Of a stretch of DNA of 64,000 bases, positions 43,715 to 64,000 are shown one piece after another. Source of the stretch: Stakelama sediminis. GTDB lineage: Bacteria > Pseudomonadota > Alphaproteobacteria > Sphingomonadales > Sphingomonadaceae. The first letter of the stretch is position 1. Every line of letters begins with the position of its first letter. The notes under the pieces were generated by a model. It had not been told where the DNA came from and made no database searches. It saw only the letters and a list, made by a program, of their open reading frames with translations. The DNA is taken from NCBI RefSeq assembly GCF_014199335.1, contig NZ_JACIJI010000001.1, forward strand, positions 1,054,001-1,118,000. Reading direction: 5' to 3'. A program made the translations under genes and the position numbers.

Positions 43715-45316
43715 TCACATCCGGAACACGCCGAATTGCGGGCGTTCTGGTATCGGCGCGTTCAACGTCGCGGCGAAGGCAAGGCCCAGCACGTCGCGCG
43801 TCTGCGCCGGGTCGATGATACCGTCATCCCATAACCGCGCAGTGGCGTGCCAGGGATTGCCCTCATCCTCGTACTTCTGGCGGATCGGCGCCTTGAAGCT
43901 TTCTGCCTCTTCCGGCGTCCAGCTATCGGCGTCGCGATGGACGGTGGCCAGCACGGACGCGGCCTGCTCGCCGCCCATCACGCTGATCCGGCTGTTGGGC
44001 CAGGTGAACAGGAAATTGGGCGAATAGGCGCGTCCCGCCATGCCGTAATTTCCCGCGCCGAAACTGCCGCCGATCAGCACGGTGATCTTCGGCACGGTCG
44101 CGGTGGCAACCGCCGTCACCAGTTTTGCGCCGTGCTTGGCAATGCCTTCCGCTTCATATTTGCCGCCGACCATGAAGCCGGAGATGTTCTGTAGAAAGAG
44201 CAGCGGGATACGCCGCTGACAGGCGAGTTCGATGAAATGCGCGCCCTTGACCGCCGCCTCGCTGAACAACACGCCGTTATTGGCGAGGATCGCCACCGGC
44301 ATCCCCCATATATGCGCGAAACCGCACACCAGCGAGGTGCCGTACAGCGCCTTGAACTCCTGAAATTCGCTGCCGTCGACAAGGCGCGCGATAATTTCAT
44401 GCACGTCATAGGGCGCGCGGACGTCTTGCGGCACGATGCCGTACAACTCTTCCGCGGCGAATCTGGGCGCGCGCGGATCGGCGATGTTGATGTCCGGTGT
44501 ACGGTCGGCAGGCAGTGTCGAAACGATATCGCGCACGATGGTCAGCGCATGCTCGTCATTTTCGGCGACGTGATCGACCACGCCCGATTTACGCCCGTGC
44601 AGGTCGCCGCCGCCCAGATCCTCGGCGCTGATTTCCTCGCCCGTCGCAGCCTTGACCAGCGGCGGTCCGGCAAGGAAAATCGTGCCCTGATTGCGCACGA
44701 TGACGCTTTCGTCGGACATGGCGGGGACATAGGCACCGCCTGCGGTGCAGCTTCCCATGACACAGGCGATCTGAGGGATGCCCTGTGCCGACATTTGCGC
44801 CTGATTGAAGAAGATGCGCCCGAAATGGTCGCGGTCGGGAAACACGTCCGCCTGATGCGGCAGGTTGGCGCCGCCCGAATCGACGAGGTAGATGCACGGC
44901 AGGCGGTTCTGCTGCGCGATTTCCTGCGCGCGCAAATGCTTCTTCACCGTCATCGGGTAATAGGTGCCGCCCTTCACCGTGGCGTCGTTACACACGATCA
45001 TCACCATGCGGCCCGAAACGCGACCGATACCGGCGATCAGCCCGGCGCCGGGCACTTGTCCGTCATACAGGTCGCAGGCGGCAAGCTGGCCGATTTCCAG
45101 AAACGGCGCACCGGGGTCGAGCAGGCGTTCGACACGATCGCGGGGCAGCAGTTTGCCGCGCGACAGATGCCGTTCGCGGCTGCGTTCCGAACCACCCAGT
45201 GCGGCCGTCGCGACATCCGCGCGCAACCGTTCGACCAGCGCTTTATTGTGCGCAGCATTGGCGCGGAAATCGCCGCTGTCGGGCGACAGCTTCGTATCGA
45301 GAACAGGGGCGGTCAA
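43715..45316 (-). CDS. mccB: Methylcrotonyl-CoA carboxylase carboxyltransferase beta subunit
   Basis: This subunit moves CO2 from biotin to 3-methylcrotonyl-CoA, giving 3-methylglutaconyl-CoA. It is 533 aa. The N-terminal and C-terminal crotonase-fold halves are both complete ([76 protein letters not shown]). I chose the TTG at 45316: GGAGG lies 7 nt upstream, it overlaps the DUF1801 stop as TTGA, and the product begins (M)TAPVL like homologues. An ATG at 45334 would add six residues. Confidence 0.93.
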
Positions 45317-52247: not shown

Positions 52248-52323
52248 GCCCAAGTAGCTCAGTTGGTAGAGCATGCGACTGAAAATCGCAGTGTCGGTGG
52301 TTCGATTCCGCCCTTGGGCACCA
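52248..52323 (+). tRNA. tRNA-Phe (GAA)
   Basis: A 76-nt tRNA with CCA encoded. The acceptor GCCCAAG pairs with CTTGGGC; the anticodon loop CTGAAAA gives anticodon GAA. D-arm GTAGCTCAG, variable loop and T-arm GGTTCGATTCC are standard. It follows yacG, as in many Alphaproteobacteria, and a T5 tract lies right after CCA. Confidence 0.98.
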
Positions 52324-52578: not shown

Positions 52579-52619
52579 CATATCGTTATTCAATAAGACA
52601 TTCATTGAGGAACGATATG
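52579..52619 (+). promoter_or_regulatory. Leader hairpin that covers the start of the DUF2975 gene
   Basis: CATATCGTT at 52579-52587 pairs with AACGATATG at 52611-52619, which contains the ATG (52617). Inside, TCAAT at 52590-52594 pairs with ATTGA at 52604-52608, covering the ribosome site GAGG. Sixteen positions per arm hold 14 Watson-Crick pairs, one G-T and one mismatch. It may block translation or act as a DNA operator for the XRE regulator. Confidence 0.45.
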
Positions 52620-53132
52620 AAACTCAATGCTCTCACGCTATCGCGCTTGCTGGTTCGTATATTGTTCTGGCTGAATATCGTTCTCGCCGCTGCTTTTGTG
52701 GCGCTGCTCCTGTGGTGGAGTGTCAGCCCGCACTGGATCGAGTCGATCCTCGGCGCAAAATATGGTTCCGGTAAAGCGAATGAGATACGCGAACTGATGC
52801 AAGCGGCGCTTCTCCTTGGCATTCTTACGGCTGCTCCGGTCGGAATGATTTTGGCGATGCTGTTGCGTATGATCGAAACAGTGCGGGCGGGTACGCCCTT
52901 CGTCGCGATCAATGCGCAGCGCCTGCGTCTGATGGGGTGGCTGGTTCTCGGCCTGCAGGTGGCCGACCTTATATTTTCAGCGCTTGGCATCTATGCCGGT
53001 AGCCTGCACGCCGACTGGCAAGGATCCACCCCTTCGCTCATGGGCTGGCTGCTGGCACTGCTGCTGTTCGTGCTGGCGCGGATCTTTTCCGAAGGTGTCG
53101 CGATGCGCGACGACCTTGAAGGCACTGTATAA
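52617..53132 (+). CDS. DUF2975 membrane protein
   Basis: A 171-aa inner-membrane protein with four predicted helices (about 15-38, 63-85, 105-125, 139-158) and the DUF2975 pattern MIETVRAGTPFVAINAQRLRLMGWLVL in the third. The next gene, an XRE regulator, starts on its stop codon; DUF2975-XRE pairs are common in bacteria. Function is unknown. The ATG at 52617 follows GAGGAA. Confidence 0.87.
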   Translation: MKLNALTLSRLLVRILFWLNIVLAAAFVALLLWWSVSPHWIESILGAKYGSGKANEIRELMQAALLLGILTAAPVGMILAMLLRMIETVRAGTPFVAINAQRLRLMGWLVLGLQVADLIFSALGIYAGSLHADWQGSTPSLMGWLLALLLFVLARIFSEGVAMRDDLEGTV

Positions 53133-53356
53133 TGCCCTTGCAGATCAGGCTCGACGAGCAACTGCACCAACAGCGCATGACGCTCACCGAACTGTCCGAA
53201 CGCGTGGGCATTACGCTGGCCAACCTTTCCATATTGAAGACCGGCAAGGCCAAGGCGATCCGCTTTTCGACGCTCGAAGCGATCTGCCGTGTCCTGCAGT
53301 GCCAGCCGGGCGATCTGATCGTGTTCGAAGATGATGAGGAAGAGGGGGCAGTATGA
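53132..53356 (+). CDS. XRE-family (Cro/CI, YozG-like) regulator
   Basis: A 74-aa helix-turn-helix protein: MTLTELSERVGITLANLSILKTGKAKAIRFSTLEAICRVLQCQPGDLI. This is the short YozG-type group that partners DUF2975 proteins. Its acidic tail (EDDEEEGAV) is notable. It probably controls its own operon. It overlaps the upstream gene by 1 nt and the downstream gene by 4 nt. Confidence 0.92.
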   Translation: MPLQIRLDEQLHQQRMTLTELSERVGITLANLSILKTGKAKAIRFSTLEAICRVLQCQPGDLIVFEDDEEEGAV

Positions 53357-54132
53357 TGTGGACTGACATTAAATCCATCTATCGCAGCGCATGGACGTTC
53401 ATGATTGCCTGTCCACTGCTGTTTCTGATCCCGGTGTTTGTCGAGATGGCTCAGCATGTGGCCGAGATCCATATCGGCATGTATCACAGCCTTGCGAGTG
53501 CCCGGGCCGTGGCGGATTCACCGCTGCGCATGACCTTTGCGGTAGCCAAGATCATCGCCCTGATGCTGCCCGGCTATTGGTTCGTCCGCTATCTTGCCGC
53601 CGGCAATGACCCGCACGCCGCCCGGCGGATCGAACCGGTCGGGCTGGCTTTATGGTCGATCCTCTTCACGCTCAATCTGACCCTCTCACTCTATTCTCTT
53701 TTCGGACCGCCGCTGGGCGAAGCGCTTGGGCTGACGGGATCGGTCGGCACCTATTTCGGAACCGCCGTGTCAGGGGGATGGTCGATTCTCAGCGTCTATC
53801 TGTCGGCATGGATCATTGCCTGGACGCTTGGCAACGCGACAATCGGTCCGCTGCGCTCGGTCGCGATTATGAACGGCTATTTCTGGCGTACGGTAGTGTA
53901 CATGGTGACGGGCGTTCTGCCGCTGATGGTGGTGCACTATGCACTCGGTTACGGTGCGATGGGGTGCCCGAACTGGCTGATCTGGCCGATGCTCATCGTG
54001 GATGCATTTCTTGTGGGGATTCTCGCCCTGACCATGACGGCCCCCATCTGGCTGGGGGCACGTCGCGCCGCTGAAGCCAGAGGCGTGGAACTCGCCCCCC
54101 ATATCGACAGCCTTTCCATGCAGCGCGTCTGA
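53353..54132 (+). CDS. Multi-pass membrane protein of unknown function
   Basis: A 259-aa inner-membrane protein with six or seven predicted helices (about 17-35, 60-80, 97-115, 130-160, 180-205, 215-235). No known domain was recognised; there is no signal for a transport family. The start ATG overlaps the stop of the XRE gene (ATGA), so it is the third gene of the DUF2975 operon. Confidence 0.75.
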   Translation: MMWTDIKSIYRSAWTFMIACPLLFLIPVFVEMAQHVAEIHIGMYHSLASARAVADSPLRMTFAVAKIIALMLPGYWFVRYLAAGNDPHAARRIEPVGLALWSILFTLNLTLSLYSLFGPPLGEALGLTGSVGTYFGTAVSGGWSILSVYLSAWIIAWTLGNATIGPLRSVAIMNGYFWRTVVYMVTGVLPLMVVHYALGYGAMGCPNWLIWPMLIVDAFLVGILALTMTAPIWLGARRAAEARGVELAPHIDSLSMQRV

Positions 54133-54238: not shown

Positions 54239-56620
54239 TCAACTGCCGCTAAAAGACGGCGGTAAGAACGAGGACCCCCATTGCTTGTCGGGCATCTTGC
54301 CGAGGGTGAAATGCAGCGTACCGCCTTTCGCAACGAACGATGCGGGCAACCAGGCGCGGTCGCTCGATGCACCGTTCACCTTCAGGGCCTGCACATACGG
54401 CGAATCGGGTGCTGCTCCATCGGCCTGAATTTCGATCCGGCCATCGGGGCGATCGATCGTTGCGGAAGGAAAGAGTGGGCTGCCGACGATCAGCTCGGCC
54501 CGGCCGGGATAGAGCGGATAAAGGCCGAGTGCCGACCAGACATACCAGGAGGACATTTCACCCAGATCGTCATTGCCCGAAATCCCGTCCGGCTGGTTGG
54601 TCCAGATCTGCCGCATGGCGGCGCGCACCGTGGCTTGCGTCTTCCATGGCTGACCGACGAAATTATAGAGCCAGGGCGAACCGACCGACGGTTCATTGTC
54701 CAGTTCGGCATGCAACGGCCCCGATTTGGTCACCGCCCATTTGCCGTCGGGAGTACGGAAGAACGCGTCGAGCCGGGCTGCCATCGCCTGCTTGCCGCCC
54801 AGCGCCTTTGCCAGACCGGCCGGGTCGAACGGCACCATCCACAGATATTGCGCGCCGCTGCCTTCGACGAAACCGTCGTCCGACGCCGGATCGAACTGCG
54901 TCCAGCTTCCATCGGCGTTGCGCTGCTGAATATAGCCGCCTTGCGCTGTCGCCTTCGGATTGAACAGGTTTCGCCACCAGCCGGAGCGCCGAAGGAATGC
55001 GCGCTCACCTGCCCGGTCGCCAGCATCGCGCGCCAGTTGCGCAAGGCCGAAATCGGCGGCGGTCATTTCCAGCGTGTCCGCCGCACCGCCCCAGCCGGGG
55101 GCACCGGCCGGCATGTAATGCAGCTTCAGCCATTGATCGAGGCCGGGACGCTGACCCACGCACAGCACCGGGCATCCCGTATGACTGAGATCGCCGGGTG
55201 TCGGAACGGTTGCCGCACGTTTCAGCGAGGCATAGGCGCGCTTCAGATCGAAGCTGCGCCCGCCGAATGCATAGACCGCCGCCAGCGACTGCGGCGACGG
55301 ATCGCCGTTCATCACACTGGTGGCGCCGGTCAGATGCGTCCAGCGGTCCCACACACCGCCATTCTGGTCGGCCTGATTAAGCAGGGACTGGGCGATATCG
55401 GACCCGCGTTGCGGATCGAGCAGCGTGACCAGTTGCAGTTGCGAGCGATAGACGTCCCAGCCGGAATAGTTCGCATATTGCGCATGCTGTCCGGGCGACA
55501 ACTGGTGCACCTTGCCGTCAAAGCCGCGATAGCGTCCGTCGCTGTCGCTATAGAGATTGGGTTCGAGCAGCGTGTGATAGAGCGCGGTGTAAAAGACGGT
55601 GCGGTTGTCGCCGCTGCCACCGGTGATCCGGACCTGCCCCAGCGCGCGGTTCCATGCGGCACGCGCGGCAGCACGGGTTGCGGCCAGTGTGGTTCCCCCC
55701 GGGCTTTCCTTGTCCAGATTGGCGCGGGCTCCGGCTGCATCGACATAGGATATGCCGATACGGACATGGACCACCGACGACCGGTCGGGATCGAAGCTGA
55801 TCCATCCACCGGCCCCCTTGCCCAGCGGCGGATGCCCCTCGCTACCATAGCTGGTGCCGCCCGAGCCATCGGTCGAACCTGTATCGACCTGATCGTCGTG
55901 CCAGGTACCGCCCGCTTTGAACGGCTTGTCGAACACCGCTACGAAGTGCAGCGTATAATAGCTCTGGCGCTTGTCCTTCGACAGATAGCCGCAGAAATTG
56001 CCGCTGGTCACGGACCCGGTGACGGTGCGATGCGCTGCGTCGATATGGATGGTGGAGGCGGTGCTGCCGACCTCACTGTCCGAGGTCCGGAAGAGCAGGT
56101 TCGCGGGTTTATCCTTCGGGAAGGCGAACTGCCCCACCGCCGTGCGGTCGGTTGCCGAAAGATCGGCCTGAACACCATTATCGAGTTTGACCGAATAGGC
56201 ACCGGGGCTGGCGCTTTCCTTGTCATGCTCCAGAATGCTGGCATACATCAGCCCCGCCTGAACGGACGACGGAGATGTCGTGATCGGCACGGTGACCGGC
56301 ATGATCGGGATGTCGCCGCTCGCCCCTGCACAGCCCGTTCCGGACAGATGAGTCAGCGCGAAACCACGCACGCCATTATCGCGCCATTCATACCCGCCCG
56401 GCGCGGCCATCGGAAACCGCTTGCCGGGAAGCGGCGTTTCTTCCGGGCTGAACGCCACCATGCCGAACGGCATCGTCGCACCGGGATAAAGGTTGCCGCC
56501 ATTGGTGGTGCCGATGAACGGATTGACCTCAGCCGCCGGATCGGCGGTATCGACATCATGGCCAACGACCTGCATCGGCATCAGCGCCGAAAGCGCAATC
56601 AAACCCAGTGTGCGTACCAT
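54239..56620 (-). CDS. GH92 alpha-mannosidase (copy 1)
   Basis: A 793-aa calcium-dependent exo-alpha-mannosidase of family GH92, exported by a Sec-type signal (MVRTLGLIALSALMPMQVVG). The N-terminal beta-domain starts VNPFIGTTNGGNLYPGATMPFGMVAFSPE; the (alpha/alpha)6 barrel has the signature GNDDLGEMSSWYVWSALGLYP (from residue 682). The acid region reads FVEGSGAQYLWMVPFD. An ATG 15 nt upstream (56635) is an alternative; both have good ribosome sites. The linkage (alpha-1,2, 1,3 or 1,4) cannot be told from sequence alone. It is the last gene of the mannan operon. Confidence 0.94.
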   Translation of the reverse strand: MVRTLGLIALSALMPMQVVGHDVDTADPAAEVNPFIGTTNGGNLYPGATMPFGMVAFSPEETPLPGKRFPMAAPGGYEWRDNGVRGFALTHLSGTGCAGASGDIPIMPVTVPITTSPSSVQAGLMYASILEHDKESASPGAYSVKLDNGVQADLSATDRTAVGQFAFPKDKPANLLFRTSDSEVGSTASTIHIDAAHRTVTGSVTSGNFCGYLSKDKRQSYYTLHFVAVFDKPFKAGGTWHDDQVDTGSTDGSGGTSYGSEGHPPLGKGAGGWISFDPDRSSVVHVRIGISYVDAAGARANLDKESPGGTTLAATRAAARAAWNRALGQVRITGGSGDNRTVFYTALYHTLLEPNLYSDSDGRYRGFDGKVHQLSPGQHAQYANYSGWDVYRSQLQLVTLLDPQRGSDIAQSLLNQADQNGGVWDRWTHLTGATSVMNGDPSPQSLAAVYAFGGRSFDLKRAYASLKRAATVPTPGDLSHTGCPVLCVGQRPGLDQWLKLHYMPAGAPGWGGAADTLEMTAADFGLAQLARDAGDRAGERAFLRRSGWWRNLFNPKATAQGGYIQQRNADGSWTQFDPASDDGFVEGSGAQYLWMVPFDPAGLAKALGGKQAMAARLDAFFRTPDGKWAVTKSGPLHAELDNEPSVGSPWLYNFVGQPWKTQATVRAAMRQIWTNQPDGISGNDDLGEMSSWYVWSALGLYPLYPGRAELIVGSPLFPSATIDRPDGRIEIQADGAAPDSPYVQALKVNGASSDRAWLPASFVAKGGTLHFTLGKMPDKQWGSSFLPPSFSGS

Positions 56621-56649
56621 TCCTATCTCCGGCATTGCTGTCCTGTCGC

Positions 56650-57600
56650 TTATTCTGCCGCGCGGCGAAGCGGTTGCGCCGCAGCATCAAGGGCGTCGAG
56701 CCCAAGCGCGATCGATCCCAGCGGCCCGGCCATCGTTCCCAGCTTTGGTGCCACGATATACGGTCCATCGTCGGGCAAGGGCATATACCCCGCCATGCTT
56801 TCCCTCAGCGCTGCATCAACCCGCCCCAGCAGGTGCGGCTGACCGGAAACCACGCCGCCGCCCATCGCAATCCGCAAGGGGCCGGTGGCACAGACCAGAT
56901 CATGCGCCATGATCGCCAGATAATGAACGATCGCATCCCATATCGGATCGTCGGGCATAAGGTCGGAAATCTCCCGCCCATCCAATCGGGATTTCAACGC
57001 CGTACCCGACGCCAGCCCCTCGATACAATCGGCGTGATAACGGCAGACGCTTCGCGCATCATCGCCGGGAAAACGCGGCACGCGAAGATGGCCGATCTCG
57101 CTGTGCCCAAGCCCCCGTGTGGGTCGCCCATGCACGATCAGGCCGACGCCGACGCCGGTGCCCACCGTCACATAGGCAAAGTCGTCCATACCGACGCCGC
57201 TTCCCCATCGAATTTCCGCGAGCGCTGCGCCGTTGACATCGGTATCAAAACCTATCGGAAGATCGAAATGCGCTTTCAACGTACCAAGCAGGTCCGCATT
57301 CGGCCAATGCTCCTTGTTGGTCGCAAGGATGTGGCCAAAACTGTCGGACCTCTCGTTCAGGTCTAGCGGACCGAACGAGGCGATGCCCAGCGCGGAAAAC
57401 CCCGAAGATCGCTGCCAGTTTTCAAGCGTTTCCACGATGGCCGGCAGGGTTTCCCAAGGCGTGGTGGTGGCAATGGTTTCCTGATCCAGAATCGCATCCG
57501 GACCGGTGGCCAGGGTACAGATACATTTGGTTCCGCCCAGTTCGACACCGGCAAGGGGCTGTCTTTCCCGACCAGCGGACCAGGTCGCATCAACGTTCAA
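56650..57600 (-). CDS. ROK-family sugar kinase (fructokinase/mannokinase-like)
   Basis: A 316-aa cytosolic kinase. The phosphate motif LAGVELGGTKC is at about 16-26. Zinc-site residues sit in GHLRVPRFPGDDARSVCRYHADCIEGLASG, as in fructokinases, with Asp in FDTDVNGAA as the general base. In a mannosidase cluster a mannokinase/fructokinase role, making mannose-6-phosphate or fructose-6-phosphate, is likely. It ends 14-29 nt before the next GH92 gene. Confidence 0.88.
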   Translation of the reverse strand: MNVDATWSAGRERQPLAGVELGGTKCICTLATGPDAILDQETIATTTPWETLPAIVETLENWQRSSGFSALGIASFGPLDLNERSDSFGHILATNKEHWPNADLLGTLKAHFDLPIGFDTDVNGAALAEIRWGSGVGMDDFAYVTVGTGVGVGLIVHGRPTRGLGHSEIGHLRVPRFPGDDARSVCRYHADCIEGLASGTALKSRLDGREISDLMPDDPIWDAIVHYLAIMAHDLVCATGPLRIAMGGGVVSGQPHLLGRVDAALRESMAGYMPLPDDGPYIVAPKLGTMAGPLGSIALGLDALDAAAQPLRRAAE

Positions 57601-57735
57601 AATTTTTCCCCCAACTCGGGCCGGAGCAATACCGGATTACATCAACTGCACCGGACAGGCGCAAAGTGCCTGCCCTGTATCCCGGCAACACCGACCGGTT
57701 TTCCTCCACGGCTGTGGACTGGGTGCCGGGTGCCC

Positions 57736-60069
57736 TCATCCCCGGTTCATCCCGAACGATGGCGGCCGGTCGCGTTTTGCGCTTCCGAAACGCGATGGTT
57801 TCGTTCCCATTTCAAACACCAGTTCACCACCGGCAACAAGGTCGGCATGGGCAATCCAGTTCTGCGTCCGACGCTGCCCGTTCCAGCGTACCGACTGAAC
57901 ATACGGGCTGTCGGGACCATTGCCGTTGGCGCGGACGGTCAGCGACCTGCCGTTGCCCAGGCTGACCTTAGCCGTATCGAACAGCGGCGAACCGAATACA
58001 TAGACTGCGCTTACCGGGTCGACCGGATAGAAACCGAGCGCGGACAGGATGAACCACGCACTCATCTGGCCGCAATCGTCATTGCCGATCACGCCGTCAG
58101 GATCGTCCTTGTACATGCTGGTCAGCAGGCGCCGGACCATCGCCTGCGTCTTCCACGGCGCGCCGCAATAGGCATAGAGATAGGCGACATGCTGGTCGGG
58201 TTCGTTGCCATGGGCATATTGGCCGACCAGACCGGAAATGTCGGGCGGGGCATTTTTCGGCAGCGTCGAGGGCGCGTTGAACAGCCCGTCGAGCTTTTTC
58301 TCGAACACGGCGTCGCCGCCGAAATGCTCGATCAGGCCATAAACGTCATGCTGGTTGAGGAAGGTCGCCTGCCAGCCATTCGCTTCGGTATAATCGCGCC
58401 ACTTGTCGGGATCGTGGCCGAGCTGAATGGGATCATAGTCTTTCCACCAATGGCCATCGGCAAAACGCGGCCGGGCAAAGCCGATCTTCGCATCGATCAC
58501 ATTCCTGTAATTCTGCGAACGCTTACGCAGCGCCTGTGCGTCTTCGGTGGCGCCGACGGCTTCGGCAAGGTGCGCCATCGCCCAGTCGTCATAGGCATAT
58601 TCCTGGGTGCGGCTGACCGATTCCCACACCTTGTCGCAGGGGATATAGCCGAGATCGTAGTAGAAACCGCGCCCCAGCGAGCTGTCGGAATCCTTGAAAT
58701 TGCGGTCGAAGGCGCGCGCCCGGATCTTGGGCCATGCCGCCTTATAGTCTGCCTTGATCCCCTTGACGCTCGCCTCCGCCATGATCGAGGCGGCGTGCCA
58801 GCCGATCATCGTGCCGGTCTCCACGCCCTGCAACGGCCAGACCGGCGGACCATAGGGACTTTCGGCCGTCTGACGACACAGATCGCCCACCAGCAGGGCC
58901 GCCTGTTCGGGATGCACCAGCGTCAGCAACGGGTGCAACGCACGATAGGTATCCCAGGTCGAATAGGTGCTGAATGCCGCTTCGCCCTTCGGTGCCTGAT
59001 GCACCTGCCGGTCCAGCCCGACATAGCGCCCGTCGCGATCGGTGAAGAGCGTAGGTGCCAAAAACGCATGATAGAGCGCGCTTGCCATGATGGTGCGTTG
59101 CGCCGGTGTTCCTCCCGACACGCGGATACGGTCAAGCAGACCGCCCCAGCGCTTGCGCGCATTGTCATGGGCACGGTCGAAATCCCAGCCCGGCGCTTCC
59201 GCGGCCAGCGCTGCACGCGCGCCCGGCACATCGACTGCCGACAGGCCGGTTCTGATCAGGATCGGATCGCCACCGGCATTGTCGAAAAACAAGGCAAGCT
59301 TCAGCCGATTGCCGGTGACATCGGTGGCCTCAGCCGACATCGGCTTGTCGTCGTCGCCATAGAACCGGATGCGATCGGGTTTGCGCGACAATTGCATCGC
59401 GAAATAGATGTGCCGCCCCTTGGCCCAGCGATTGACCTTACGCCCGCCGGTAATCGTTCCGTCGGGATCGATGGCAAGGCTTGCGTTCTCGACCAGTGCA
59501 TTTTTCTGTCCGGCATCCCATTTATCGACGACCGCATGGGTGAAATCGATCAGGATATGACCCGGCCCCTCGGCAAAACGATAGCGATGCAGGCCGCATC
59601 GCTCGGTAACGGTCAGTTCCGCCTGAACCCCCGATTCCAGCGCCACGCGATAATAGCCGGGTTCGGCATATTCCTGGCTGAAACGCTGACGATAACCCTG
59701 TTCTGGATGCTCTTTCGGCCCCGGCGTCAGCATCAGTTTCTGCCGGGTCGGCACTACCAGCACGTCGAGCATGTCGCCAACACCGGTGCCCGACAAATGG
59801 GTGTGGCTGAACCCCATGATCGAGCCATCGTCCTGATGATAGCCCGAACAGGCATCCCAGCCGTAATTATTGGTGTCGGGGCTTAGCTGCGCCATCCCGA
59901 AGGGCAGGCTGGCACCGGGAAAGGTATGGCCGTGCCCGCCGGTGCCGACAAAGAGGTTGGGGCGTCCTGACGCAGGCGTGGTCGCCGATCGGGCGAGATG
60001 CGGCACGCCCGCACCGATTGCGGCCAGTCCGGTGCCTGCAAGAAGCTGTCGGCGGTTGGTGGTGAGCAT
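57736..60069 (-). CDS. GH92 alpha-mannosidase (copy 2), Tat-exported
   Basis: A 777-aa GH92 enzyme with a twin-Arg signal (NRRQLLAGTGLAAIGAG). The start at 60069 has AAGGGA 5 nt upstream; an earlier ATG at 60084 overlaps the GH125 stop but lacks a ribosome site. The signature GNDDCGQMSAWFILSALGFYP is at residue 662 on, and the N-terminus LFVGTGGHGHTFPGASLPFGMAQLSPD is complete. The acid region is YTEANGWQATFLNQHD and a HGNEPDQHVAYLYAYCGAPW segment near 615 differs from the other two copies, so a different linkage is likely. Confidence 0.94.
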   Translation of the reverse strand: MLTTNRRQLLAGTGLAAIGAGVPHLARSATTPASGRPNLFVGTGGHGHTFPGASLPFGMAQLSPDTNNYGWDACSGYHQDDGSIMGFSHTHLSGTGVGDMLDVLVVPTRQKLMLTPGPKEHPEQGYRQRFSQEYAEPGYYRVALESGVQAELTVTERCGLHRYRFAEGPGHILIDFTHAVVDKWDAGQKNALVENASLAIDPDGTITGGRKVNRWAKGRHIYFAMQLSRKPDRIRFYGDDDKPMSAEATDVTGNRLKLALFFDNAGGDPILIRTGLSAVDVPGARAALAAEAPGWDFDRAHDNARKRWGGLLDRIRVSGGTPAQRTIMASALYHAFLAPTLFTDRDGRYVGLDRQVHQAPKGEAAFSTYSTWDTYRALHPLLTLVHPEQAALLVGDLCRQTAESPYGPPVWPLQGVETGTMIGWHAASIMAEASVKGIKADYKAAWPKIRARAFDRNFKDSDSSLGRGFYYDLGYIPCDKVWESVSRTQEYAYDDWAMAHLAEAVGATEDAQALRKRSQNYRNVIDAKIGFARPRFADGHWWKDYDPIQLGHDPDKWRDYTEANGWQATFLNQHDVYGLIEHFGGDAVFEKKLDGLFNAPSTLPKNAPPDISGLVGQYAHGNEPDQHVAYLYAYCGAPWKTQAMVRRLLTSMYKDDPDGVIGNDDCGQMSAWFILSALGFYPVDPVSAVYVFGSPLFDTAKVSLGNGRSLTVRANGNGPDSPYVQSVRWNGQRRTQNWIAHADLVAGGELVFEMGTKPSRFGSAKRDRPPSFGMNRG

Positions 60070-60080
60070 GGCCATCCCTT

Positions 60081-61529
60081 TCATATCGTGCCGGAAAGAA
60101 GTGCGGGACGATGATCCGCCAGTTCGACGATGAGCTGGCCAAACAAGGCATTCGCCCAGGCGAACCATTTGCGTGTGAAATCGGTGGGATCGTCCTTGTT
60201 GAACGATTCATGCATGAAGCCGGTGCCGCCATCCGTCGTCTTCAGCCAGTGCAGGCATTGCCGGACGGTGGCATCATCCTTTGCATTCATGGCATGGGTG
60301 ATGATCGACATCGGCCAGATCATGTTCAGGCCGATATGCGGCCCGCCTATTCCTTCCGCAGCCTTGCCCCTGAAGAAATAGGGATTGCGGTCCGACCATG
60401 CGCGTTCGGCGGTGCGGCGGAACAGGGCATCGTCGCCATCGACCGCATCGATGATCGCCAGACCCGATAGGCTGGGGACATTGGCATCGTCCATGAATAC
60501 CCAGTTGCCGAACCCGTCAATCTCATAGGCCCAGACCTGCCCGCCCTGGCCATCGGGAATCAGCGCATGGGCGTGCAGCACCGTCTCCACCTCTTTGGCA
60601 AGCGCCTCGGCATCGGCCGCCGCCTGTTCGTCCCTGCGCGTCTCCCGGTGAAGCTGCGCGACCTTGCGCAGCGCCGATACCGCGAACAGGTTCGAGGGGA
60701 TCAGAAAGGGATAGAGGCAGGCATCGTCGGAGGGGCGAAACATCGAATGGATCAGCCCGATCTTGCGTGTCGGACGGCCATAGCCGCTCAGCATCAGGCT
60801 GTCGGACGGGACAAACGCCTCGCGCTGGAAATGATAGGGGCCGGGACCGTGCAGGCGCTGCTGCACCCGAAAGGTTTCCACCGACAGTTTCGCCGCCCGG
60901 CTCCAGGTGTCGTCGAACGGCGTCTTGTCGCGCGTACGCATCCAATAGCTGTGCGCAAGCCGCATCGGATAGCATAGCGAATCGATTTCCCATTTCCGCT
61001 CGGCCACGCCGGGCTTCATGTCGGTCCTGTCCTTTTGCGACCAGTCGAGGTTCGACATGGCGCCGGGATCCTTCATGAACGCATTGGCATAGGGGTCGAT
61101 CAGGATGCAGCGCGCCTGACGCTGGATCAGCCCCTGAAACATCTGCCGCAGCTTCGCGTCGCGCGCCGCGAGATGGACATAGGGCTGCACCTGTGCCGAA
61201 CTGTCGCGCAGCCACATCGCGTCGATATCGCCGGTGATGACGAAGGTATCGGGCTTGCCGTCGACCATGCCCAGCTCGACCGTGGTGTCGAGCGTGTTCG
61301 GATAACAATTCTCGAACATCCATGCGAGTTTGGGATCGGCGATCTTCGCCTTCACCCGCGCAATTTCCGCCTCGATGGCGGGGCTGGTGAAGTTGCGTTT
61401 CGCCAGCGGCGGGCGATTGCTGGTCCGTGCCGCCGCGCGCGCCATCGACGGCAGGGCTGCGCTGAGTGTCAGCACGCCCGTTCCGGCCATGATCTCGCGT
61501 CGGCTGGGGGTCATCGCGCTCTTCTTCAT
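60081..61529 (-). CDS. GH125 exo-alpha-1,6-mannosidase, Tat-exported
   Basis: A 482-aa enzyme of family GH125, which removes alpha-1,6-linked mannose from the non-reducing end of glycans. A twin-Arg signal (SRREIMAGTGVLTLS) leads it. The family core is GDIDAMWLRDSSAQVQPYVHLA (about 97-118), with later FMDDANVPSLSGL and GFMHESFNKDDPTDFTRKWFAWANALFG near the C-terminus. The ATG at 61529 overlaps the stop of the upstream GH92 gene (ATGA). It complements the GH92 enzymes, which do not usually cut the alpha-1,6 backbone. Confidence 0.94.
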   Translation of the reverse strand: MKKSAMTPSRREIMAGTGVLTLSAALPSMARAAARTSNRPPLAKRNFTSPAIEAEIARVKAKIADPKLAWMFENCYPNTLDTTVELGMVDGKPDTFVITGDIDAMWLRDSSAQVQPYVHLAARDAKLRQMFQGLIQRQARCILIDPYANAFMKDPGAMSNLDWSQKDRTDMKPGVAERKWEIDSLCYPMRLAHSYWMRTRDKTPFDDTWSRAAKLSVETFRVQQRLHGPGPYHFQREAFVPSDSLMLSGYGRPTRKIGLIHSMFRPSDDACLYPFLIPSNLFAVSALRKVAQLHRETRRDEQAAADAEALAKEVETVLHAHALIPDGQGGQVWAYEIDGFGNWVFMDDANVPSLSGLAIIDAVDGDDALFRRTAERAWSDRNPYFFRGKAAEGIGGPHIGLNMIWPMSIITHAMNAKDDATVRQCLHWLKTTDGGTGFMHESFNKDDPTDFTRKWFAWANALFGQLIVELADHRPALLSGTI

Positions 61530-63883
61530 TTGGCCGGTGCGCTCATCGAAAAGGGCACGTCGGCGGGCGACGCCCCCCATTGCTTGTTCGGCTTCGGCCC
61601 CATGACGAAGGTCAGCGCACCGCCCTGTTCCAGTGCATCGTGGGTCAGATAGGTCCTGGCATGCGGCTTGCCGTTCAGCGTCACCGACTGAATGTAGACA
61701 TTGGCCGGGCTGTTATTCTGCGCATCGATGGTCAGCGTCTTGCCGCTCGGCATGGTCAGCGTGACATGGCGGAACAGCGGGCTGCCGATCGCATATTGGC
61801 CGCTGGCGGGCGTGACCGGATAGAAACCCAGCGCGGAAAAGACATACCAGGCCGATGTCTGCCCATTATCCTCATCCCCCGGATAGCCGTCCGGGGTCGC
61901 CGAATAGAGCTTCTTCATCACGTCGCGCGCATGATATTGCGCTTTCCACGGCGCGCCTGCCCAGTCGTACAGATAGATCATGTGCTGGATCGGCTGATTG
62001 CCATGGGCATATTGACCCATATCGACAATCTGCATTTCGCGGATTTCGTGGATGACCTGTCCATAATAGCTGTCATCGAAAACCGGCGGCGTGGTGAAGA
62101 CCGAATCCAGCCGGTCGACGAACTTCTGCCGACCGCCCATCAGGTTGATCAGTCCCTGCACATCCTGCATCACCGCCCAGCTATAATGCCATGCATTGCC
62201 TTCGGTGAACGCATCGCCCCATTTGAACGGGTTAAACGGCGTTTCCCACGATCCGTCCCGATTACGCCCGCGCATCCATCCGCTCGCGGGATCATAGAGC
62301 TTGCGGTAATTCTGGGCATGCTGCGCATAGAATGCCGCGTCTTTCGTCTTGCCCAGCGCCTTTGCAAGCTGCGAGATCGAAAAATCGGCCGTGGCATATT
62401 CCAGCGTGCGCGCGGCATTTTCGTTGATGCCGACATCATAGGGGACATAGCCCAGCTTGTTGTACCAATCGACGCCTTCGCGCCCGACCGCGCTGATGAC
62501 ATTGCCCTTCTTGTCGGTCGGTCGTCCCTTGTCGGTGGTCGCGTTCTTGATCATCGCGTCATACAGCGCGTTGACGTCGAACCCGCGCACGCCGTTGATA
62601 TAGGCGTCGGCGATGATGTTGGCGGAGTTGGAGCCGATCATCACGTCGCGATAGCCGGGACTTGCCCATTCGGGCAGCCAGCCACCTTCCTTATACGTGT
62701 TGACCAGCCCCTGCATCATCTGGCTGTCGCGTTCAGGATACATCAGCGCGAAGAAAGGAAATACCGCTCGCCAGGTGTCCCAGAACCCGTTGTCGGTATA
62801 CATGTAGCCGGGGTGCACTTTCCCGTCATAGGGGCTGTAGTGCACCACCTTTCCCTGCGCATCATATTCAAAGAATTCGCGCGGAAACTGCAGCATCCGG
62901 TACAGCGCGGAATAGAAGGTGCGGCGGTTGTCGAGATTTGGGTCATCGACACGCACCTTCGCCAGTTGTTTTTCCCAGGCCGCCTTGGCCTTTGCCTCGG
63001 TCGTGTCGAAACTGTCGCTGCCGATCTCCCGGTCGAGATTGCGTTCGGCCTGCTCCGGACTGATGAACGACGAGGCAACCTTGACATGCACCTGTTCGCC
63101 CTTGGTGGTTCTGAAGCTGACCACCGCGCCGACATGGTCGCCTTCGCGCGACGTATCCGCCGTCACCTGCCCATTATCGTCCCAGGTACGCGTGACAGTG
63201 AAATCATGGTCGAACTGCGCAACGAAATAATTGTGGAAGTTCTTCGGCACGCCACCATGGTTGTTGCGGACATAGCCGATGATCCGGCGTTTCTCCGGCT
63301 CGATCTTCACCATCGAACCGCCCGCATAGCCGTCAATCAGGATATGGGCGTCATCGCTTTTGGGAAAGGTGAAGCGAAACTGCGCCGCGCGCGCGGTCGG
63401 CGCGACTTCCGCCGTCACGTCATAATCGGCGAGATAGACCTTGTAATCATAGGGGTGAGAGACTTCCGCCTTGTGGCTGAACCAGGAGGCGCGATCCGCT
63501 TCCTTGATTTTCAGCGGGCCGGTTTCGGCGAACAGCGCAAAGGCCGCATAGTCGTTCATCCACGGGCTGGGCTGATGAGTCTGTTTGATGCCGTTTATCT
63601 TGTGCGTTTCATAGGTATAGCCCCAGCCGCTGCCCATCTTCCCCGTCACCGGCGACCAGCTGTTCATCCCCCACGGCACCGCAATTGCGGGGTACACATT
63701 GCCATAGGATAATTCGTAACTGTTGTCGGTGCCCATCAACGGGTTGATGAGATCGACCAGTTGCGGTTGCGGCGACGCCGCCTGCGCCTGTGCAGTCCGG
63801 GCCTCAGCCGCCGGTGCAAGCGCGCTTGTCGCAATCAGAGCGGCGGCGGCGCAATTCAGCGCGGTGGATGCAATCAGCTTCAT
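61526..63883 (-). CDS. GH92 alpha-mannosidase (copy 3)
   Basis: A 785-aa GH92 enzyme exported by a Sec-type signal (LIASTALNCAAAALIATSALAPAAEA). The N-terminus LVDLINPLMGTDNSYELSYGNVYPAIAVPWGMNSWSPV is intact. The signature is GDEDNGQTSAWYVFSALGFYP (from residue 669), with GDED in place of the GNDD of the other copies and Thr for Met; the acid region is FTEGNAWHYSWAVMQD. This suggests a different subfamily. It is coupled to its neighbours by ATGA overlaps on both sides. Confidence 0.94.
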   Translation of the reverse strand: MKLIASTALNCAAAALIATSALAPAAEARTAQAQAASPQPQLVDLINPLMGTDNSYELSYGNVYPAIAVPWGMNSWSPVTGKMGSGWGYTYETHKINGIKQTHQPSPWMNDYAAFALFAETGPLKIKEADRASWFSHKAEVSHPYDYKVYLADYDVTAEVAPTARAAQFRFTFPKSDDAHILIDGYAGGSMVKIEPEKRRIIGYVRNNHGGVPKNFHNYFVAQFDHDFTVTRTWDDNGQVTADTSREGDHVGAVVSFRTTKGEQVHVKVASSFISPEQAERNLDREIGSDSFDTTEAKAKAAWEKQLAKVRVDDPNLDNRRTFYSALYRMLQFPREFFEYDAQGKVVHYSPYDGKVHPGYMYTDNGFWDTWRAVFPFFALMYPERDSQMMQGLVNTYKEGGWLPEWASPGYRDVMIGSNSANIIADAYINGVRGFDVNALYDAMIKNATTDKGRPTDKKGNVISAVGREGVDWYNKLGYVPYDVGINENAARTLEYATADFSISQLAKALGKTKDAAFYAQHAQNYRKLYDPASGWMRGRNRDGSWETPFNPFKWGDAFTEGNAWHYSWAVMQDVQGLINLMGGRQKFVDRLDSVFTTPPVFDDSYYGQVIHEIREMQIVDMGQYAHGNQPIQHMIYLYDWAGAPWKAQYHARDVMKKLYSATPDGYPGDEDNGQTSAWYVFSALGFYPVTPASGQYAIGSPLFRHVTLTMPSGKTLTIDAQNNSPANVYIQSVTLNGKPHARTYLTHDALEQGGALTFVMGPKPNKQWGASPADVPFSMSAPAK

Positions 63884-64000
63884 TTCGTCGAAACTCCCCC
63901 TCGTGCCGCGGCTGCGGGCAGCGGCCTGGGCATGACGCCCCTGTTTGTCATCTTGACGGGCGCAATCGTCCCGTCGGGATTGAAGTGCATCCGGTCGATC
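63880..64000 (-). CDS. 3' end of a probable glycoside hydrolase (GH43-like), cut by the window edge
   Basis: The last 39 residues of a minus-strand gene end at 63880, overlapping the GH92 start by 4 nt. The sequence DRMHFNPDGTIAPVKMTNRGV resembles C-terminal ends of GH43-type enzymes (xxxxFNxDGTIxPVxxTxxGV). The rest lies outside the window, so the family is tentative. It shows that the mannan operon continues upstream. Confidence 0.5.
   Translation of the reverse strand, partial: IDRMHFNPDGTIAPVKMTNRGVMPRPLPAAAARGGVSTK

Follow-up and report, generated by a model that had tools for sequence, protein, structure and literature searches.

Introduction

Gene clusters that dismantle α-mannan with several GH92 α-mannosidases and a GH125 enzyme are known from Bacteroidetes. 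The literature describes mannan and high-mannose systems in Bacteroides thetaiotaomicron (BT3990, BT3130, BT3965, and BT3781; PMC10154615, PMC5930347) and an α-mannan-induced polysaccharide utilization locus (PUL) in Salegentibacter (Hel_I_6) with six GH92 genes and one each of GH43, GH125, GH2, and GH76, in which the GH43 is closest to BT3675 and the GH2 to a GH2 arabinofuranosidase (PMC9213526). A proteobacterial N-glycan cluster with GH92 occurs in Xanthomonas campestris (cited in PMC10154615), and a GH2 enzyme of Streptomyces sp. JHA19, ORF1110, acts on galactofuranose and not on arabinofuranose, and frees galactose from Aspergillus galactomannan (PMC4560423). Here we analyze a mannosidase cluster at one end of a 64,000-nucleotide stretch of the Stakelama sediminis genome (contig NZ_JACIJI010000001.1, bases 1054001-1118000; hereafter the window). 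The genome is 3.46 Mb long and 99.95% complete.

An earlier note on the window had described an alpha-mannan/N-glycan operon of six genes, with three GH92 enzymes. We found that the cluster continues past the window end and includes five GH92 enzymes, a TonB-dependent receptor (TBDR), and a GH2 and a GH43 of furanosidase type. This pair escaped the note because it lies outside the window, and it shifts the probable target from an N-glycan to, most simply, fungal galactomannan. The interpretation that we favor, with a probability of roughly 0.6, is that the cluster serves to import and exo-degrade a mannan that filamentous fungi or lichens decorate with galactofuranose, of the fungal type or the O-mannose type of galactomannan.

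The N-glycan cluster of X. campestris is reportedly linked to TonB. The present cluster shares with it a proteobacterial host and GH92, and differs in its target and in that the locus showed neither a GH20 nor an ENGase. The likeness to the B. thetaiotaomicron systems lies in a BT3990-like GH92 (GH92a), a BT3781-like GH125, and a division of labor among the GH92 enzymes, whereas here no GH76 was found, the locus has no ENGase, and furanosidases are added. The Salegentibacter PUL comes closest in content, with several GH92 enzymes (six versus five here), one GH125, a GH2 of the furanosidase group, and a GH43 near BT3675, which we take to be the solved structure 3QZ4. In contrast to that PUL, the present cluster is proteobacterial and has a ROK kinase and a ROK regulator; no GH76 was found in the genome, and no SusD among the locus proteins scanned. 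ORF1110, which we infer to be 9J6M, belongs to the same GH2 group as the cluster enzyme, and its NEGWGQ acid motif and GE[YF]GG glutamate are kept in the alignment, but the Streptomyces enzyme carries an additional domain of the arabinofuranose-binding type (AbfB) (PMC4560423). The locus is best read as a proteobacterial fungal-mannan version of a cluster type known from Bacteroidetes, unusual for its furanosidase pair and for having no detected endo-mannanase.

Results

A furanosidase-type pair accompanies the mannosidases

We compared the cluster GH2 with proteins of solved structure. Among the best 60 of 128 matches, 7SF2 scored 469 bits, 9J6M and 9J6N 444 and 447 bits, and 7XYR 265 bits, and all others scored below 94 bits. 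Both 9J6M and 9J6N bear the PDB name beta-D-galactofuranosidase 2; 9J6M belongs to GH2_18 and 7XYR to GH2_19. By these matches the enzyme falls in GH2_18/19 (group III), the sole GH2 group with reported furanose activities. The marks of this group are an NE acid motif, a glutamate nucleophile in loop 7, and a Thr in place of Trp in loop 8. In sequence alignment, the stretches NNEGWGQ, LGEYGG, and TQTSDVE of the cluster GH2 match 9J6N. E573 has been named as the nucleophile (PMC11084152), an assignment that we have not reconciled with the LGEYGG glutamate of the cluster enzyme. A role as β-mannosidase or β-glucuronidase is disfavored because the top matches form the furanosidase group, although 7XYR is a β-glucuronidase by its PDB name (it is called uncharacterized in PMC12243196).

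The cluster GH43 overlaps GH92a by 4 nt. Its nearest solved relative was 3QZ4 (160 bits, versus 122 for the next), presumably BT3675, a GH43_34 arabinofuranosidase. Subfamily GH43_34 contains two β-galactofuranosidases as well as α-L-arabinofuranosidases (PMC8939339). A xylosidase role, for instance on plant N-glycan xylose or on glucuronoxylomannan, is disfavored by the ranking of solved structures, with 3QZ4 at the top; xylosidases appear in the same list at lower scores, and 3QZ4 itself is named there as endo-1,4-beta-xylanase D.

Because of the group of the GH2 and the nearest relative of the GH43, the substrate likely carries a furanosyl cap. Galactofuranose would be a better guess for this cap than arabinofuranose, since the furanose that has been reported from fungal mannans is galactofuranose. 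A reference title in PMC12858847 gives a β-1,5-galactofuranosyl side chain for fungal-type galactomannan, and galactofuranose is stated to be absent from mammals and yeasts and present on certain filamentous fungi (PMC4560423).

The mannosidases are predicted to divide the linkages

GH92a matched BT3990 (2WVX family) at 966 bits. In the alignment it carries both α-1,2 motifs, PSPW (Pro-Trp) and His-Glu, and the other four GH92 proteins have neither. These residues have been tied to the α-1,2 specificity of GH92 enzymes (PMC12858847, PMC5930347), and GH92a is predicted to be a BT3990-like enzyme of the α-1,2 type. The nearest solved relatives of GH92b were 7ZGM (529 bits), an α-1,3-mannosidase (PMC9522356), and 6F8Z (499 bits), which is BT3130, an enzyme of uncertain, likely α-1,3, linkage; by similarity, GH92b is placed in the α-1,3 clade. 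GH92c and GH92d are more distant, with 310 and 322 bits to 6F8Z, which for GH92c is the nearest solved protein. GH92e was closest to 6F91 (654 bits), which we take to be BT3965. An α-1,4 role for GH92e on the strength of this likeness is disfavored because the stretch before the acid glutamate, compared by eye, is shorter than in 6F91. The BT3965 clade is otherwise α-1,3 or includes α-1,3 enzymes (PMC5930347).

All five GH92 proteins keep the acid glutamate (BT3990 E533) and the essential C-terminal base aspartate (D644), which in GH92a are E561 and D672. The D642/D644 numbering of BT3990 is assumed here and was fitted to the GH92a alignment. The signature residues are EGNAWH/GDED in GH92a, EANGWQ/GNDD in GH92b, and EGSGAQ/GNDD in GH92c, differing just as the earlier note had written them. 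Its contrast of GNDD with GDED comes down to the residue two before the essential aspartate (the BT3990 D642 position), which is Asp in GH92a, Asn in GH92b, GH92c, and GH92e, and Met in GH92d.

The GH125 matched solved GH125 proteins, with 3P2C nearest (513 bits) and BT3781 (2P0V) at 507 bits. These relatives include exo-α-1,6-mannosidases, and GH125 is the α-1,6 family, so the cluster enzyme is assigned by homology as an exo-α-1,6-mannosidase. The α-1,2 motifs confined to GH92a and the α-1,6 family of the GH125 support the proposal of α-mannan breakdown with a division of labor. For the kinase, the best-fitting model was that of the fructokinase ScrK (202 bits, below the model cut-off of 400), and the nearest solved protein was 1XC3/3OHR, a fructokinase (206 bits). 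The suggestion that the kinase takes the released sugar is thus allowed, since a place near the fructokinases permits mannokinase activity, but it is no proof of it.

Layout of the cluster

The whole cluster spans about 26.3 kb (54239-80574), of which ~16.6 kb lies past the window end, so that the genes first noted are its downstream half (Table 1). The minus-strand gene set at 54239-64000 is real by Pfam (three GH92, GH125, the ROK kinase, and the tail of the GH43 as the sixth gene), and the scores of the five complete window genes are far above cut-off. The count of three GH92 enzymes and the six-gene extent fell short: genome-wide searches gave five GH92 matches and one GH125 match, all within the cluster. 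The TonB receptor and the regulator that the note had proposed to look for beyond 64000 lie just outside the window, the latter a ROK-type gene divergent from GH92e.

Three 4-nt ATGA joins were seen, as had been claimed, at GH43/GH92a, GH92a/GH125, and GH125/GH92b. The starts of GH92b and GH125 were picked from these overlaps, and the Pfam scans used longer frames. Such overlap is the one pointer to co-expression of the cluster genes. Read by eye, the N-termini agree with the export routes given in the note: Sec-like for GH92a and GH92c, and Tat-type for GH92b (NRRQLL) and GH125 (SRREIM). GH92d, GH92e, GH43, and GH2 also have Sec-like N-termini.

Table 1. Features of the cluster and its flanks in window coordinates (window-equivalent beyond 64000)
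Feature	Position	Strand	Remarks
tRNA-Phe (GAA)	52248-52323	plus	about 1.9 kb from cluster end
DUF2975 protein	52605-53132	plus	beside cluster
259-aa protein	53353-54132	plus	no Pfam match; match in 13/41 genus genomes, own included
GH92c	54239-56635	minus	Pfam GH92 490 bits; exported α-mannosidase (predicted), linkage uncertain
ROK kinase	56650-57600	minus	Pfam ROK 153 bits
GH92b	57736-60084	minus	Pfam GH92 525 bits
GH125	60081-61529	minus	Pfam 520 bits
GH92a	61526-63883	minus	Pfam GH92 604 bits
GH43	63880 to about 64956	minus	Pfam 165 bits; last 121 bases (63880-64000) inside window, start outside
TonB-dependent receptor	65055-68096		beyond window end
GH2	68352 to about 70310		beyond window end; start chosen by us
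GH92d	70430-72970 (L007 6430-8970)		beyond window end
Major-facilitator transporter	72942-74204		beyond window end
Sugar transporter	75324-76697	opposite to preceding genes	
ROK regulator with winged-helix part	76718-77992		beyond window end
GH92e	78229-80574	plus	fifth GH92
PrmA-family gene	abuts GH92e		outside cluster

The core recurs in other genomes of the genus

Our genus sample comprised 41 genomes, own included, of which 33 have GH92. Ten other loci were picked by their strongest full-length GH92 matches, their surroundings were fetched, and the cluster proteins were then sought by tblastn. GH92a was present in all ten, which gives at least 11 of the 41 genomes, a minimum because GH92 genes were assigned to types in these 11 genomes only; in 10 of these 11 it stands beside GH125. 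It is reasonable to say, as the note did, that such sets are known above all from Bacteroidetes, but these counts place the arrangement in the present genus as well. Over the 11 loci, GH125 and the TBDR each occurred in 10, GH92b and GH43 each in nine, and GH2 in four, always together with GH43. The full core of TBDR-GH43-GH92a-GH125-GH92b was found in seven of the 11, and also in G043 (another genus of the family), in Pelagerythrobacter aerophilus, and in Sphingomonas sp. DG1-23. The main miss was G167, a 79% complete genome from which one 20 kb region was fetched. An ortholog of GH92c was present in one of the ten other loci (G186). GH2 adjoins GH92d in the own genome and in G186, G187, G169, L010, and L011, the last two of which were found through GH2. 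In P. aerophilus (L010 7438-9902), the GH92d counterpart spreads over two overlapping frames, a frameshift or a sequencing error. Across the 149 genomes of the family, GH125 was found in only three, counting the own genome and one with a weak match (2e-11), or 3/96 by genus.

Partial GH76 matches over cut-off occurred in two of the 41 genus genomes, G157 (C11:1268640-1269149) and G184 (C12:270329-270844), in both cases outside the fetched cluster region. These are exactly the two of the 11 loci that have the TBDR and GH92a without GH43 and GH2 (GH43 versus GH76 over the 11 loci, Fisher exact test, 0.018). The GH92a proteins of the two genomes are 97% identical, so that they represent one lineage and the mutual exclusion is suggestive and not proof.

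The GH2 group recurs with mannosidases in a second phylum

We surveyed the neighborhoods of the best 80 of at least 589 confirmed GH2 relatives from a collection of named genomes; 41 of the 80 loci were shorter than 21 kb, so that neighbor counts are lower bounds, and the profiles were built from the same loci. GH92 was found in six loci, GH125 in four, and GH43 in 13; two of the six GH92 loci and two of the four GH125 loci are the orthologous sphingomonad cluster. Flavobacterium limi and F. beibuense share the order GH2-GH92a-GH125-GH92d, which in F. limi follows a TonB receptor plug protein, SusD, SusE, and GH76; the neighbors scanned in F. beibuense were SusE, GH76, a GDSL hydrolase, and an aldose epimerase. 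GH92 and GH125 thus accompany GH2 enzymes of the furanosidase group in two phyla.

A Bacteroidales contig (L045 516-5364, 10928-11929) has two genes of the GH2 furanosidase group and a GH43 54% identical to the cluster GH43. This set adjoins a glutaminase-A-like protein and a sulfatase, with no GH92 in the fetched stretch.

Flanks

In the own genome, the cluster abuts the PrmA-like gene. Of the other ten genomes, eight carry this gene on a separate contig, G165 has it at a distance of 1.9 Mb, and G167 gave no match. This pattern fits a gain by transfer or rearrangement. The PrmA-type frame (L007 16575-17957) encodes 460 aa and is open throughout in the own genome; in many genus genomes the match is split into residues about 1-130 and 125-450, as if overlapping genes had been fused or mis-joined. 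Just past this flank (L008 316-3075), two chemotaxis-receptor genes lie in tandem; the first matches protoglobin weakly, at 22.1 bits against a Pfam cut-off of 25. The tRNA-Phe gene was rejected as an integration site, since the longest repeat of its 113-nt neighborhood, 14 nt at 44540, lies away from the far boundary and is no longer than expected from 60 random stretches (range 11-21).

Discussion

The combination of an α-1,2-type GH92, GH92 enzymes of the α-1,3 clade, a GH125 of the α-1,6 family, and furanosidase-type GH2 and GH43 enzymes points to a furanose-decorated α-mannan as the substrate and not to an N-glycan. In the scheme that we propose, the TonB receptor would import oligosaccharides into the periplasm, where GH2 and GH43 would strip terminal furanosyl residues, most likely β-D-galactofuranose. 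GH92a would take off α-1,2-mannose, GH92b and GH92e would take off α-1,3-mannose, GH125 would take off α-1,6-mannose, and GH92c and GH92d would act on linkages not yet assignable. The monosaccharides would enter the cell through the two major-facilitator transporters, mannose (or fructose) would be phosphorylated by the ROK kinase, and control of the cluster would lie with the ROK/winged-helix regulator. Substrate, galactofuranose, order of action, and regulation are the inferred parts of this scheme. As no GH76 was found, the cluster seems to be built for the exo-trimming of imported oligosaccharides.

Use of plain α-mannan or high-mannose N-glycans, with GH2 and GH43 incidental or acting elsewhere, is an unlikely explanation. 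GH92 and GH125 enzymes do serve on both substrates (PMC10154615), and G157 and G184 have the core without the furanosidase pair. Yet among the 17 locus and flank proteins scanned with Pfam there was no ENGase, PNGase, GH20, or β-mannosidase (no genome-wide search covered GH18 or GH85), and the one GH20 match in the genome is 208 kb from the cluster, so that the N-glycan target of the earlier note is not borne out. The furanosidase pair also appears to be no accident of position: the GH43 that overlaps GH92a is present in nine of the 11 genus loci, and GH2 adjoins GH92d in six sphingomonad loci and GH92a in the two Flavobacterium loci. It is more doubtful still that the furanose is L- or D-arabinose, in a plant arabinose glycan or in mycobacterial lipoarabinomannan whose mannan core GH92 and GH125 would remove. 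GH43_34 and GH2_18/19 both include α-L-arabinofuranosidases, BT3675 (3QZ4, as we assume) being one; α-L-arabinofuranose with α-mannan is, however, to our knowledge an uncommon natural pairing. The 17 proteins include no arabinose catabolic gene product and no member of the D-arabinan families GH172 and GH183 (named in PMC10115798).

That the cell uses these enzymes to turn over its own surface glycan is very improbable. All eight hydrolases have signal-like N-termini, by eye, and may be periplasmic, which such a role would allow; but the TonB receptor, the transporters, and the kinase indicate catabolism, and the spread of GH125 in the family is patchy. A genome search gave no match to UDP-galactopyranose mutase (control positive 4/14), which makes self-made galactofuranose an unlikely target.

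Several observations weigh against a galactofuranose-decorated mannan as the target. Both furanosidase families also hold α-L-arabinofuranosidases, and the authors of the Salegentibacter study compared its GH43 and GH2 with arabinofuranosidases (PMC9213526); the available portion of that text contains no word beginning galactofuran-, Galf, or furanos-. The review PMC10154615 gives the fungal decoration as α-galactofuranose, which a β-galactofuranosidase could not remove. Within the flanks fetched, most GH2 relatives in the 80 loci have no mannosidase neighbors. Of the 11 genus loci, only four have GH2, and two have neither furanosidase. The activity of GH92d is unsure because its base motif, GMDD, has Met at the first position, where GH92a has Asp and GH92b, GH92c, and GH92e have Asn. 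The own genome gave no match to GH76 endo-mannanase (control positive 2/14, one over cut-off) or to GH99, for which the control was equally silent; with no GH76 found, it must fall to others, or to an unknown enzyme, to cut the long polymer. A shared operator for the ROK regulator was sought in six intergenic stretches and dropped, as they have neither a palindrome in common nor a shared word longer than 10 nt.

In the open-access literature we found no alphaproteobacterial cluster of like kind and little on bacterial use of galactofuranose-bearing mannan; most subscription papers were outside the search. More tentatively, and at somewhat less than even odds, sphingomonads may use galactofuranose-decorated mannan of fungi or lichens by a TonB-dependent, exo-only system that exists in two versions: one with furanosidases and without GH76, for galactofuranomannan, and one without furanosidases and with GH76 in the genome, maybe for bare α-1,6-mannan. 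The GH2, GH92, and GH125 set would be common to Flavobacteriia, where it occurs with Sus proteins and GH76. If the galactofuranomannan interpretation is true, the locus would offer galactofuranosidases paired with mannosidases and a sequence by which to recognize bacteria living on mold or lichen cell walls, and there would be reason to reread the "arabinofuranosidases" of marine α-mannan PULs as galactofuranosidases.

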